NCBI GenBank assembly: GCA_017536765.1 | Contig: JAFXGV010000012.1 | Coordinates: 1 to 60,634 of the forward strand | Reading direction: 5' to 3' | DNA from: Bacteroidaceae bacterium | GTDB taxonomy: Bacteria > Bacteroidota > Bacteroidia > Bacteroidales > Bacteroidaceae | Length of the DNA: 60,634 nt | Part shown: piece after piece, positions 20,998 to 29,710 of the stretch | Numbering within the stretch: position 1 is the first letter of the stretch | How the letters are laid out: the number at the start of each line of letters is the position of its first letter | The notes under the pieces: generated by a model | What the model was told of the DNA's origin: nothing | The model's input: the letters and a program-made list of their open reading frames with translations, nothing else | Databases searched by the model: none | Translations under genes and position numbers: made by a program

Positions 20998-21017
20998 ATG
21001 ATATTCTTTGAAAGTTA

Positions 21018-22535
21018 TTATTTATTGTTTTCGGGATCTCTGCGGCGTGGTGCAGCACCACGATTGCCCCTGCCTGCTCCACGGGGAGCACCACCTTTGC
21101 GCACTGCATAACCGCCACGTGCCGGGGCCGCACCGCGATATTCGCGTTTCTTTTCGCGAGGAGCGCCATCGGCGGTTTCGCCACTTTGTTTTTTTCTTAT
21201 CTTTTGGGCTGTACGGGTGTTGAAATAGGACTCCAACTCCCTGCGACGACGTTTTGATTCATCGCTCTCGAGCGAGGCAAAATCGTCGGCCGTGCGCTGT
21301 GAACGCGAGGGGCGCAACTCGCCATCGAGCCCCGTGAGGCGCGACTTGCGCTTGAGCGGGGCAAAATCCTTTTTAAGACTTTTGCCCTCTTCGCGGAATC
21401 CTTTGAACTTGCCCTGGAAGAGCTCGAATTTGCGGAACTCGCAATCGAGGTCGCCGTTATAGAGGGGGATGCGTGCCGATGCCTTAAGACCAATCTTGTC
21501 GAAACAGTCGTAACTGCTGCTTATAACCCAAGCCTCGTTACCCTGGAAGGCGTGTTTAAGACGTGAGCCCAAGTTCTCATATATCTGCAACAGTTTGTCG
21601 GAAACAAGGCGCTCGCCATAAGGGGGGTTAACCACCATTATGGCACGTTTTTCGGGCTGCACAAAATCCTTTATATCGCGGCACTCAACCTCAATGATAT
21701 CGCCCATCATAGCCGATTTAATGTTCTTGCGGGCACAAGCCACCATACGGCCATCAACGTCATAGCCATATATCTTGTGGTTGAACTCACGCTCCTTGGA
21801 ATCGTCCTCGTAGATTGAGCGGAAGAGGTCGCTATCGAAATCTTTCCATTTTTCAAAAGCATAGCCCTGACGATACACACCCGGAGCTATGTTGCGGGCA
21901 ATGAGGGCAGCCTCAATGGGCAATGTGCCCGAGCCGCACATAGGATCGATGAAATCGCACTCGCCATCCCAGCCTGTGAGCATTATGAGGCCCGCGGCAA
22001 GCACCTCGTTGATAGGTGCTGCACCGGTCTCCACGCGGTACCCACGGCGATGAAGGCTCTCACCAGAACTGTCAAAGGCGAGCGTGCAATCCTCCTGTGC
22101 TATATGTATGTGGAAAATGAGGTCGGGGTTATTGAGGCGCACCGAGGGACGGCGGCCGGTCTTTTCATTGAAATAGTCGGCAATAGCATCCTTCACACGG
22201 TATGCCACGAATTTCGAATGACGGAACACATCGCTATATACCACCGAATCGACCGAAAAAGTAGAGTTTGCATCAAGATATTTTTCCCATTCAATGCTTT
22301 TGATAACATTATAAACCTGATCGGCATCGGATGCTTTGAAATGGAGTATCGGTTTAAGGATACGAACAGCCGTTCTCAAATGGAAATTGGCCTTATACAT
22401 AAGCGCCTTGTCACCTGTGAACGACACCATACGTCGGCCTATCTGCACATTATTGGCACCAAGTGCCACCAACTCCTTCGCCAAAACCTCTTCCAGTCCT
22501 TGGAAGGTTTTTGCAATCAATTCAAATTCCTCCAT
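21018..22535 (-). CDS. THUMP-domain rRNA methyltransferase (RlmL-like) with RG-rich C-terminal tail
   Basis: A 505-residue class I SAM-dependent RNA methyltransferase. It starts [21 protein letters not shown]; an upstream in-frame ATG at 22670 would sit inside the repeat array and is rejected. A THUMP domain (about 45-160) is followed by the methyltransferase core with [19 protein letters not shown] (SAM site) and NPPYGERL (catalytic motif IV). It corresponds to the RlmL half of E. coli RlmKL, so methylation of 23S rRNA guanine is likely (inference). The last about 120 residues are basic and disordered, ending in RGG/RGA-type repeats ([23 protein letters not shown]). Confidence 0.9.
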
Positions 22536-22645
22536 AATATTCAAATGAAAAACAGGAAATGCTCCTAAATCAACAAAAAAGTAAAAGCTAAGCACCGTAG
22601 CCGGCAGGCAAGAAGGCACTCCTCCTTGCAACAGCTTTGCTTTTG

Positions 22646-22653
22646 CAAATTTA
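22646..22653 (-). promoter_or_regulatory. Probable -7 element of the rlmL-like-purD operon
   Basis: The minus strand reads TAAATTTG, a perfect TAnnTTTG. It lies 8 bp beyond the edge of the 82-bp repeat array, so any upstream promoter element falls inside the first repeat. The leader would be about 105 nt. Confidence 0.55.
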
Positions 22654-22660
22654 CGGCAAA

Positions 22661-23079
22661 AATTCCACAAACGAGCAAGATATATAAAGTTTACTTTGAT
22701 ATTTTGCAGCGAGTGCAGTCAATTTTCGCGCACAAGCGCAAAAATTCCACAAACGAGCAAGATATATAAAGTTTACTTTGATATTTTACAGCGAGTGCAG
22801 TTAATTTTCGCGCACAAGCGCAAAAATTCCACAAACGAGCAAGATATACAAAGTTTACTTTGATATTTTACAGCGAGTGCAGTTAATTTTCGCGCACAAG
22901 CGCAAAAATTCCACAAACGAGCAAGATATACAAAGTTTACTTTGATATTTTACAGCGAGTGCAGTCAATTTTCGCGCACAAGCGCAAAAATTCCACAAAC
23001 GAGCAAGATATATAAAGTTTACTTTGATATTTTACAGCGAGTGCAGTCTTTTTCGCGTGAAACGCAAAAATTCCACAAA
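22661..23079. repeat. Tandem array of 82-bp repeats (5 copies plus 11 bp)
   Basis: Units begin at 22661, 22743, 22825, 22907 and 22989 (the last is 80 bp and diverges at its end), and a partial copy starts at 23069. Copies differ at only a few positions (tatata/tataca, cagtc/cagtt, ttttg/tttta). Each junction carries an inverted repeat, for example arms 22721-22731 and 22736-22746 around ACAA. On the minus strand the stem is 11 bp with one G-U pair and loop UUGU; on the plus strand that pair is a C-A mismatch. The array fills the gap between two divergent promoters. No coding frame is conserved across copies. Confidence 0.95.
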
Positions 23080-23106
23080 GAGAACAACACGAAACAGGCG
23101 GACAGG

Positions 23107-23138
23107 CTTGATTTTTGCGGTGAAAAGAGCTATTTTTG
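23107..23138 (+). promoter_or_regulatory. Promoter of the lytic transglycosylase gene
   Basis: CTTG (23107-23110), 20-bp spacer, TATTTTTG (23131-23138). Initiation near 23145 gives a leader of about 42 nt. Confidence 0.6.
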
Positions 23139-23186
23139 CAATATAATTACAGAAAACATTTATTACACAACAAGCGAATAACGCAG

Positions 23187-24164
23187 ATGAGATTCTACAA
23201 TAAAAATTTAACAATATGCGCGCTGACGATTGCCGCAACAGCAACTATAGCGGCAATACTTGGCAACAGCACAGCAGACAAGTTCAATGTGCCATACTCA
23301 CAAATACCCTATTGCGCAGTATCGCCCATACCACCCGCAAAAATCACATTTGCAGGCGAGGAGATAGCACTCACACAACAAGACCGCCGCGAGAGGATGG
23401 ACCGCGAAATACTCGCATTCACATATTCGCACATAAACACCCTGCTGCAAATAAAACGTGCCAACCGCCTGTTCCCCGTGGTGGAACCGCTATTAAAAGA
23501 GTGCGGTGTGCCCGACGATTTCAAGTATCTTATGATTATCGAAAGCAACGGAGATATATTTGCACGCTCAACGGTAGGCGCGGCAGGCCTGTGGCAATTT
23601 ATGGACAAGACAGCCCGACAGTATGGCCTGGAGGTGAATAACAGCATAGACGAAAGATACCACATAGAGAAGGCTACCCGTGCCGCCTGTGCCTATCTGA
23701 AGGAGTCGTACGAAGTGTACGGCGACTGGCTCACCGTGGCCGCCAGCTACAATGCGGGGCGTAACAGCATAAGCAAGCGCATAGATAAACAAAAGGAGGA
23801 GAAGGCCATAAACCTACAATTAGTGCCCGAAACGTCGCGTTACCTCTTCCGTCTGCTTGCCGCAAAGGAGATTTTCAGCGATCCGGTGAAATATGGTTTC
23901 ATAATACAACACCGCGACCTGTACCCACCCCTGCCCATAGCAGAAACCATAACCGCAAGCAAGGCGGTTATCAACTGGCCATCGATAGCCAAAAGGCACG
24001 GGCTCACATTCCTGCAACTGCGCGAGGCAAACCCCTGGATAAGGGAGGCCGAGCTGAACAACAAAAGCGGCAAACGATATGCGGTGCTGATACCCGACTC
24101 GGCACGCCTTCACTACAACCCACAGGATACAAGAGCCCACAACAGCAAATGGGTAATCAAATAA
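23187..24164 (+). CDS. Lytic murein transglycosylase (SLT domain, MltD-like)
   Basis: A 325-residue secreted or membrane-anchored muramidase-like enzyme that cleaves peptidoglycan to 1,6-anhydro-muropeptides. Residues 9-25 form a signal/anchor segment. The SLT domain (about 95-220) has the catalytic Glu119 in MIIESNGD, then GAAGLWQFM and AASYNAG. The C-terminal part (VINWPSIAKRHGLTFLQLRE) resembles a LysM-like fold. The start MRFYNKNLT at 23187 is chosen because it precedes the signal segment directly; 23136 overlaps the promoter. Confidence 0.9.
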   Translation: MRFYNKNLTICALTIAATATIAAILGNSTADKFNVPYSQIPYCAVSPIPPAKITFAGEEIALTQQDRRERMDREILAFTYSHINTLLQIKRANRLFPVVEPLLKECGVPDDFKYLMIIESNGDIFARSTVGAAGLWQFMDKTARQYGLEVNNSIDERYHIEKATRAACAYLKESYEVYGDWLTVAASYNAGRNSISKRIDKQKEEKAINLQLVPETSRYLFRLLAAKEIFSDPVKYGFIIQHRDLYPPLPIAETITASKAVINWPSIAKRHGLTFLQLREANPWIREAELNNKSGKRYAVLIPDSARLHYNPQDTRAHNSKWVIK

Positions 24165-24199
24165 CAAAACGGCTTGCGATTGCAAGCCGTTTTGTTATT
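24163..24199. terminator. Bidirectional terminator between transglycosylase and manC
   Basis: Perfect 15-bp stem (24163-24177 with 24182-24196) with GATT loop, an A-rich 5' arm and a T-rich 3' arm. It partly overlaps the transglycosylase stop codon and serves both converging genes. Confidence 0.88.
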
Positions 24200-24209
24200 T
24201 TCATTATTT

Positions 24210-25295
24210 CTATAAGTACTCTTCGCCAAGTTTCATACGCACATCGTTGAGGAATTTGCGTATATTATGCTCGCTACCCTTGCGGCACACCATAAGCACA
24301 TTGCCGTTATCCACCACCAACAGGTCGTCGACATCCTGCAAAACCACAAGTTTCCCCGCCGGAACGGATACTATGTTGTTGCTGCTACCATACTTGAGGC
24401 AACGCGAGCGCATTATCACATTATCCTCGTTGTCCTTGGGCAACGTTCCGTAAAGAGTATCCCAGGTACCGATATCGGCCCAACCGAACTCACCTACAAG
24501 TAAACAGACGTTCTCGGCACGCTCCATCACGCTCATATCCATAGAGGCGTTGGGGAAGGAGGTATATATCTCGTAGCCACGCTTGCGGCGCTCTGCACGC
24601 ACCGGTATCTCGCGGAACACCTTCTCGAGCTCGCCCATCATATCGGGGAGGAAGGTGGTCATCGTGTCTATGAGGGTGTTCACGTTCCACATATATATAC
24701 CCGAGTTCCAAAAGAACTCGCCGCTCTCCATAAAGATACGAGCAAATTCAAGCTCGGGCTTTTCGGTGAAGGTGCGCACGTTGTAAAGAGCAGCTTCGCC
24801 ATCAACAAGCGTATCGGCCTGTATGTAGCCGTAGCGGGTTTCGGGGCAGGTGGGTTTAATGCCCACCACAACAAGTTTGTTGTTGCCCGACACAAAATCG
24901 AGCCCCTTGCCTATTGTTTCCACAAACAACTCCTCGTTGAGCACCAGCTGGTCGGCCTGCGCAACCACAATGTTCGCATTGGGATTGAGCTGGCGTATGT
25001 GGCAAGCCACATAGGCTATGCTGGGCGCGGTACCGCGAAAGGCGGGTTCGTGCAGCACCTGGTCGTCGGGCAGCTCGGGCAGTTGCTCGCGCACAAGGTC
25101 GGTGTAATCGACGTGGGTGGATACTATTATGTTCTCCTTGGGAACAACGCGACTGTACCTGTCGAAGGTTTGCTGCAACAAAGTGCGGCCACAGCCCAAC
25201 AGGTCGTGAAACTGTTTTGGTTTGTCCCTGCGGCTCAGTGGCCATAGGCGCGAGCCTATGCCTCCGGCCATTATCACACAATATCGGTTGTTCAT
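24210..25295 (-). CDS. manC: Mannose-1-phosphate guanylyltransferase
   Basis: A 361-residue nucleotidyltransferase making GDP-mannose from mannose-1-phosphate and GTP, a precursor for GDP-fucose, capsule and O-glycans. The signature GGIGSRLWPLSR with PKQF occurs at residues 11-30, and FVEKP-type FTEKPELE and NSGIYMW mark the sugar-binding part. There is no C-terminal isomerase domain, so it is the monofunctional form. It starts 10 bp after asnS and is the last gene of purB-rluB-asnS-manC. Confidence 0.93.
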   Translation of the reverse strand: MNNRYCVIMAGGIGSRLWPLSRRDKPKQFHDLLGCGRTLLQQTFDRYSRVVPKENIIVSTHVDYTDLVREQLPELPDDQVLHEPAFRGTAPSIAYVACHIRQLNPNANIVVAQADQLVLNEELFVETIGKGLDFVSGNNKLVVVGIKPTCPETRYGYIQADTLVDGEAALYNVRTFTEKPELEFARIFMESGEFFWNSGIYMWNVNTLIDTMTTFLPDMMGELEKVFREIPVRAERRKRGYEIYTSFPNASMDMSVMERAENVCLLVGEFGWADIGTWDTLYGTLPKDNEDNVIMRSRCLKYGSSNNIVSVPAGKLVVLQDVDDLLVVDNGNVLMVCRKGSEHNIRKFLNDVRMKLGEEYL

Positions 25296-29409: not shown

Positions 29410-29543
29410 GCACTTTTTAAGCATAAACACTCACGGATACGGTAAAGTTTATTAAAATTATTGCTAAAAAGAGAAAGATTATGTAAAAAAGGAATATTTA
29501 TATAAAAAAATAAACCCGGGCAATAATGCACAGGTTTCCTGGG

Positions 29544-29618
29544 TGGACGTTGACGGATTCGAACCGCCGACCCTCTGCTTGTAAGGCAGATGCTCTAAAC
29601 CAGCTGAGCTAAACGTCC
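29544..29618 (-). tRNA. tRNA-Val (anticodon TAC), copy 2
   Basis: A 75-nt cloverleaf with acceptor arms GGACGTT/AACGTCC and anticodon loop CTTACAA, giving TAC. Its sequence is identical to the next copy, which is 17 bp upstream in the same direction. Confidence 0.96.
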
Positions 29619-29635
29619 GAGAGTATTTTGTTTTG

Positions 29636-29710
29636 TGGACGTTGACGGATTCGAACCGCCGACCCTCTGCTTGTAAGGCAGATGCTCTAAACCAGCTGAG
29701 CTAAACGTCC
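29636..29710 (-). tRNA. tRNA-Val (anticodon TAC), copy 1
   Basis: Same 75-nt gene as copy 2, and first in the transcript from the promoter at 29739-29770. The exact duplication points to a recent or homogenised tandem duplication. Confidence 0.96.

Follow-up and report, generated by a model that had tools for sequence, protein, structure and literature searches.

How did a tandem array of nearly identical 82-bp units come to lie between the promoters of an rlmL-like gene and a transglycosylase gene in a Bacteroidaceae bacterium, and what kind of element is it? Here, the window denotes the whole stretch of DNA that was analysed (60,634 nucleotides). We favour, at a probability of roughly 0.6, the reading that a dispersed hairpin repeat, non-autonomous and probably mobile, lodges at -7 boxes and has expanded locally to give the array. 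In support of this reading, the repeat family is dispersed and structured, has a mostly fixed orientation relative to -7 boxes, is present or absent at the same promoter in relatives and has expanded in place in the window.

Layout of the array and plan of the unit

The preliminary description of this DNA had reported five near-identical 82-bp units, the last of 80 bp, together with a remnant; TRF on the whole window (period 82, 5.2 copies, 96% matches, 0% indels, score 771) and direct reading agree with it (Table 1). Across the family (222 distinct unit contexts), the unit follows the plan R - CGAG - hairpin H1 - CGAG - r' - R on the plus strand. R is of the GCAAA-nn-TA type and is followed by a linker, CGAG, a stem, AAGTTTACTT, a stem, CGAG and usually TGCAG; then come r', of the TAnnTTCG type, a short inverted repeat and R again. 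H1 is the stem around AAGTTTACTT, and the second hairpin, H2, consists of r' and the next R. Moreover, r' is able to pair with the preceding R as well, enclosing H1. The unit is mostly 66-86 bp long in the family and 82 bp in the window.

Table 1. Coordinates of the array and flanking features in the window.
Feature	Position	Strand	Basis
Whole tandem array, 82-bp unit x 5.2 (plus orientation = R-H1-r'-R)	22656..23079	+	TRF and direct reading
Unit 1 (82 bp)	22656..22737	+	Direct reading and TRF
Unit 2 (82 bp)	22738..22819	+	Direct reading and TRF
Unit 3 (82 bp)	22820..22901	+	Direct reading and TRF
Unit 4 (82 bp)	22902..22983	+	Direct reading and TRF
Unit 5 (80 bp, altered H2)	22984..23063	+	Direct reading
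Terminal R remnant, GCAAAAATTCCACAAA	23064..23079	+	Direct reading
H1 core of unit 1, CGAGC-stem-AAGTTTACTT-stem-GCGAGTG	22672..22715	+	Exact pattern match; paired changes in the family
H2 of unit 1, r' AATTTTCG ... R CAAAAATT (junction hairpin, C-A / T-G pair)	22721..22746	+	
Leftmost R (GCAAAAATTCC), without the TA of TAnnTTTG	22656..22666	-	
Likely -7 box of rlmL, TAAATTTG (plus strand: CAAATTTA)	22646..22653	-	Sequence and motif of PMC7366714 (excerpt)
Likely -7 box of transglycosylase gene, TATTTTTG	23131..23138	+	Sequence
rlmL-like 23S rRNA methyltransferase gene, downstream of the array	21018..22535	-	NCBIfam PRK11783, E 1.6e-106, under the curated cut-off
Murein transglycosylase D-like gene	23187..24164	+	NCBIfam PRK10783, E 4e-21, under the cut-off

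Both promoter boxes that had been named are present in the sequence, and the array lies between them as claimed; that it fills the space was slightly too strong a wording, because 51 bp separate its end from the right box. On the left, the consensus -7 box sits 11 bp nearer the gene than the leftmost R of the array. The described junction inverted repeat with one non-standard pair (C-A on the plus strand, T-G on the minus strand) was also found, in unit 1 as AATTTTCGCGC-ACAA-GCGCAAAAATT. A second imperfect palindrome, around AAGTTTACTT, had not been described and is the core common to the dispersed family; this H1 core recurs in the array as an exact pattern at 22754, 22836, 22918 and 23000. 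Elsewhere in the window, at 29542-29710, a 92-bp tandem duplication with 100% matches holds a pair of tRNA-Val (tac) genes, both on the minus strand.

A repeat family dispersed through the genus

The search for further copies that the preliminary description had suggested was productive. Used as DNA queries against the own genome (2.36 Mb, 84 contigs, 91% complete), three units gave 21 matches, three of them the array itself, and the strict core pattern CGAGC N4-14 AAGTTTRCTT N9-20 CGAGTG detected 23 exact cores, of which five belong to the array; the reversed pattern, used as a control, detected none. By DNA similarity, matches were found in all 19 genus genomes and in none of 12 genomes from 12 other families. 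The strict pattern matched 40 of 44 genus genomes (control 0), the repeat-richest of which, G047, holds 42 cores. Among 251 genomes of the family, 27 matched, in four of the 30 sampled genera: all 16 sampled members of the own genus, eight of 15 from a second genus and three scattered ones. The named matches listed, at least 80, came mostly from Bacteroidaceae/Bacteroidales MAGs from guts of ruminants and other herbivores, with a few from Prevotella. Plasmid and phage collections gave no match by blastn, and four stretches in viral contigs fit the strict pattern. In open-licence literature searches of limited listing depth, no description of the repeat was found.

Single units prevail in named contigs, where one unit was counted in 95 arrays, two in 26, three in eight and four in one, and the five units of the window are at the high end of array sizes. 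Only two of 82 arrays in named contigs lie inside an ORF of more than 500 nt. At four loci (L190, L197, L204 and L207), a sister form of the unit carries the apex AAGCTTGCTT instead of AAGTTTACTT.

Dispersal is partly passive, since some copies ride inside larger MITE-like elements. One of these, in the own genome (L015-L020, mostly at contig ends), is a few hundred bp long, has ends GGAGATGANTAAAAAG and contains one or two H1 units; it often abuts a GAGGCTGACTAAAAAGT palindrome and seems to break the assembly. In another genome, an H1 unit is found inside a different MITE-like element, the ends of which are AGAAGCTGTTTAAATT-like (L063, L104, L141, L158, L179 and L180).

Conservation of the folded structure

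The constancy of the CGAG feet and of the apex holds by construction, because both are part of the search pattern; the H1 stems, unlike these, lay outside it. Of the 222 contexts, 194 have A-T and 13 have G-C as the pair outside the CGAG feet, and the feet themselves may stack as tandem G-A pairs. H2 was scorable in 199 of 220 units, and its loop is often TTTA (64 of 164 distinct H2 sequences). H1 is surrounded by an 8-bp inverted repeat, made up of R and r', with one conserved mismatch.

Covariation was assessed in an alignment of 49 units of one length class, with H1 and R:r' as the structure and 500 shuffles as the reference. Paired cells made up 92.6% (86.8% in shuffles), 72 cells were changed on both sides (21.6 in shuffles) and the covariation score was 0.212 (0.104 in shuffles), each value being reached in none of the 500 shuffles; slid structures paired in 30-52% of cells. 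Two measures that are less inflated by relatedness stayed within the range of the shuffles, namely the number of pairs altered on both sides (8 versus 6.7; reached in 95 of 500 shuffles) and that of further pair types (19 versus 21.6; reached in 497 of 500). From the same alignment, RNAalifold recovered the same three helices in a shorter form. When H1 arms were swapped among 155 distinct units, Watson-Crick pairing fell from 11.97 pairs to 9.82, and the best of 20 swaps reached 9.97. The outer stem R:r' scored 7.17 versus 5.94 in 85 isolated units and 5.94 versus 4.82 in the 13 isolated units that have no standard box on either side, with 0 of 1000 permutations as high in either set. H1 and the outer stem R:r' are kept by paired changes, in line with the constraint on structure proposed earlier, although the two stricter covariation measures do not exceed the shuffles.

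DNA or RNA as the level of selection

The preliminary description took the C-A pair at the junction as a sign that the structure is selected in a minus-strand transcript. This interpretation is not supported, as the mismatch is one conserved position and the other wobbles lean to the plus strand. The combination TTCG/CAAA occurs in 102 of 164 distinct H2 sequences, and A-C in 45 of the 49 alignment rows. At the two variable positions of the first R against r' in 76 units, we counted 57 Watson-Crick pairs, 14 plus-type wobbles, no minus-type wobble and five mismatches. H1 has 80 G-T/T-G against 11 A-C/C-A pairs, although 57 of 70 G-T pairs come from one conserved position, and H2 has 76 G-T/T-G against 20 A-C and 140 C-A, the C-A being mostly the conserved position. 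With the conserved C-A and the conserved G-T (30 cells) positions removed, the 49 rows retain 26 plus-type and 13 minus-type wobbles. Furthermore, the innermost pair of H1 covaries across a two-base loop: among 156 cores it is T-A in 128, C-G in 25, T-G in three and C-A in none, counts in which the pattern used to fetch the loci favoured T-A and T-G over C-A. Two-base loops suit DNA better than RNA. Altogether, we conclude with moderate confidence that the structure acts at the level of DNA, leaning to the plus strand, with the strand not settled.

A structured RNA read from the minus strand, as first suggested, or from the plus strand is accordingly a very unlikely explanation in our estimate. 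It would profit from the paired changes in H1 and R:r', from the conserved minus-strand T-G at one H2 position and from the folding of one window unit as DNA, in which the minus strand (z -2.17) does better than the plus strand (z -0.59). However, the remaining wobbles lean to the plus strand, which is antisense to the downstream gene, the innermost H1 pair varies over a loop of only two bases, and transcription of the gene probably starts downstream of the units. In addition, no Rfam family reached threshold in positions 21000-25000 of the window; the three matches were all far under gathering, the best being a snoRNA model with 32.8 bits against 136. Folded as DNA, one unit of G013 gave z-scores of 0.32 and 0.07 for the two strands, and such single-strand folding is weak, with unremarkable predicted energies for the plus strand.

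Gain, loss and expansion at the rlmL promoter

Among the rlmL promoters that were read, the best 30 of 44 matches, seven contain cores by pattern, four (G009, G040, G006 and G048) contain variant or degraded copies recognised by eye, and 19 are empty. When the 11 filled ones were marked on a tree of the 5' part of rlmL, six changes of presence resulted, five of which are forced by well-supported branches; the presence of the repeat at this promoter has thus changed at least five times among 30 genomes, and even the sister genomes G013 and G015 differ. Copy number differs between relatives too, a comparison that had been proposed as a check, with five units in the window genome, one in G010 and two in G014; G008 has three and the empty promoters have none.

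All five units of the window carry CTTTGATAT, and the copies of G010 and G014 carry CTTTAATAT; the array therefore grew or was homogenised after the split, which bears out the earlier view that it is young or kept uniform. Units 3 and 4 have a C in the other arm; if the arms pair in one of the two ways available to them, this fits T-A, T-G, C-G. The rlmL arrays of G010 and G014 (L182, a reversed minus-strand locus, and L183) are followed by different extra sequences of about 100-200 bp that are absent in the window.

Position relative to -7 boxes and downstream genes

TAnnTTTG is given as the -7 consensus of the primary sigma factor of Bacteroidetes in the excerpted text of PMC7366714. The first R reads TAnnTTTG on the minus strand in 86 of 117 leftmost units, compared with 2, 3, 2 and 6 of 117 at four shifted positions, and an ORF start on the minus strand lies within 300 nt in 99 of the 117 (median distance 49 nt). 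Among 73 arrays for which a simple ORF caller returned both neighbours, the left neighbour is on the minus strand in 62, so that the array is mostly upstream of the left gene and in one orientation; the right neighbour is on the plus strand in 32 and on the minus strand in 41. Filled and empty loci were compared in ten cases and in G013/G015 at rlmL. A -7-like box is kept at the spot in the empty relative in L126/L158, L068/L098 and L043, L146/L174 and G013/G015, and at an rlmL promoter (L077/L193) the empty relative keeps GCAAAGG; no clearly kept box was seen in the other pairs, among them L171/L084, L077/L205 and L078/L149.

Such positions are what a cis-regulatory promoter module would predict, that is, a unit selected as a -33/upstream element or operator whose copy number tunes expression. 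Both the orientation and the location directly upstream of -7 boxes speak for it, as does TTG on the minus strand at 19-23 nt from the box, with 29 occurrences summed over 66 promoter-type first units. We nevertheless regard it as rather unlikely. Taken singly, the spacing at which TTG occurs most often is 33 nt (18 of the 66), so there is no common -33 position and a -33 role is not general. Moreover, the 19 empty rlmL promoters among 30 relatives do without the repeat, and stems that change on both sides are unexpected of a sequence-specific operator. The genes downstream are also unrelated. A Pfam scan of 50 of the 87 left-gene proteins, picked by hand from the first 75, found 101 families, none in more than two members, and in the own genome the downstream genes encode rlmL-like, nagA, PLD-domain, PRK/uridine kinase-family, acyltransferase and DivIC proteins. 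This lack of a common function argues against a regulon.

Correspondence between r' and the local box

The complementarity of r' to the first R in 134 leftmost units was 7.06 versus 5.75 expected from permutation (highest of 300 permutations, 6.00). Within genomes, the match between r' and the box in 37 arrays from 12 genomes was 7.11 versus 6.51 and was reached in 1 of 5000 permutations, with no excess, or the reverse, in four of the 12. Two explanations of this correspondence are conceivable: the stem is maintained by selection, or the arrival of a unit involves pairing with the box.

In the latter case, r' might serve as a guide by which a single-stranded DNA element base-pairs with the -7 box at its next site of insertion; units would thereby be directed to promoters in a single orientation, with the box left intact. 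We put this forward tentatively and hold it to be improbable; it is suggested by the fit of r' to the adjacent box, which is also seen when arrays within a genome are compared, and by the match of r' to the local flank in the 13 isolated copies without a standard box. A CAAAnnTA-type R was found 20-60 nt beyond 37 of 88 clean last units, the right ends being ragged, and no clean target-site duplication was seen. In G013/G015, R flanks the filled unit on both sides, compared with a single R in the empty relative. Should the correspondence of r' with the box indeed reflect guided insertion, the family would represent mobile DNA that targets promoters by base pairing.

A plain neutral minisatellite had also been considered; its palindromes would be polished by template switching during replication. 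Near-identical tandem units and species-specific copy number are expected of it, and template switching could still polish the stems; genus-wide dispersal nevertheless excludes it as a full account, and the promoter position, the orientation and the way in which r' follows the local box speak against it as well. For a unit that is dispersed at promoters throughout a genus this frame is too small, and we rate it as a distinctly improbable explanation.

We return to the mobile hairpin repeat with its local expansion. The unit is a DNA palindrome, H1, with CGAG at both feet, enclosed by an outer stem of R and r'. Typically, R is the minus-strand -7 box of the gene downstream, and r' repeats this box nearly exactly in inverted form. 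Units may arrive by a mechanism that acts on folded DNA and settle at a -7 box; the insertion would be tolerated because the box is left usable. Tandem copies could then arise by slippage or unequal recombination between the R repeats. Several findings weigh against this reading: the own genome and 39 of 44 genus genomes, the own one included, have no PF01797 match, two covariation measures stay at the level of shuffles, some filled/empty pairs show no kept box, no clean target-site duplication was seen, single-strand folding is weak, and part of the dispersal is passive. At rlmL, the sequence that precedes the -7 box, -33 included, now probably consists of repeat DNA, and a copy-number-dependent effect on rlmL is possible. 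This genus-wide family of structured repeats rewrites what lies upstream of housekeeping promoters in uncultured bacteria of the gut, and its copy number changes between close species. Even if insertion is not guided, the promoters with 0, 1, 2, 3 and 5 copies provide a natural series at one locus for the study of expression effects.

Relationship to known repeats and to Y1 transposases

The family resembles REP/REPIN-RAYT systems in its short intergenic hairpins, its many copies per genome and the tetranucleotide at the hairpin foot. In contrast to REP elements, which in the excerpted texts of PMC3733652 and PMC6006769 have a GTAG-type foot at one side, the window repeat has CGAG at both; it also forms direct tandem arrays, is tied to -7 boxes and showed no linked Y1 gene at 38 loci. 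The CGAG on both feet is also seen in copies found by DNA similarity instead of the pattern, for example L009-L014, and among such copies a GTAG/GGAG-type tetranucleotide at one foot was not found. As far as tested, membership in the REP/RAYT group fails on two defining features; dispersal and form resemble such elements.

A special case of the mobile-repeat explanation would be a REP element mobilised by a Y1 (RAYT/IS200-type) transposase that is present or was lost. The foot tetranucleotide, the intergenic location and the many copies are compatible with it, and Bacteroidetes Y1 genes of subclass 2.6 are reported in PMC6006769 to be flanked by atypical structures that are copied elsewhere. 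PF01797 (Y1 transposase) matched in five of 44 genus genomes and in 84 of 251 family genomes, and G004 and G018 have weakly matching Y1 genes, that of G004 with a YIHNNP motif. Against it, the own genome (91% complete) and the repeat-richest genome, G047, gave no PF01797 match, and none of 38 Y1 loci carries a core-like repeat within up to about 2 kb on either side. These 38 comprise four loci from the genus, 29 from the family search and five with Y1-like proteins of about 350 aa; the G018 locus and most family matches were left out. We consider mobilisation by such a transposase improbable.

Among other elements, the BrickBuilt MITE of Porphyromonas gingivalis is likewise intergenic, with 19 sites in one genome, variable-number tandem repeats and reported promoter elements, but as described in the excerpted text of PMC4596501 it has a 23-bp unit, a leader and a tail ending in IS5-type inverted repeats. 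No IS5-type ends were seen in the window family, the units of which are much longer. The BOX elements of streptococci are modular intergenic stem-loops with a repeated middle module, from another phylum and of another sequence than the window repeat, and we know of no relation between them and -7 boxes. Finally, IS200/IS605 elements have folded DNA ends and a short guide that pairs with the target flank, as r' can with R; according to the excerpts of PMC6006769 and PMC5934647, the guide there is a tetranucleotide.

The Y1-like proteins of about 350 aa come from the second repeat-bearing genus (L248-L252), match PF01797 weakly and have no repeat nearby. Three of these five loci (L248-L250) share a neighbour of 382 aa, and the gene for the Y1-like protein looks like a fixed, possibly domesticated one.
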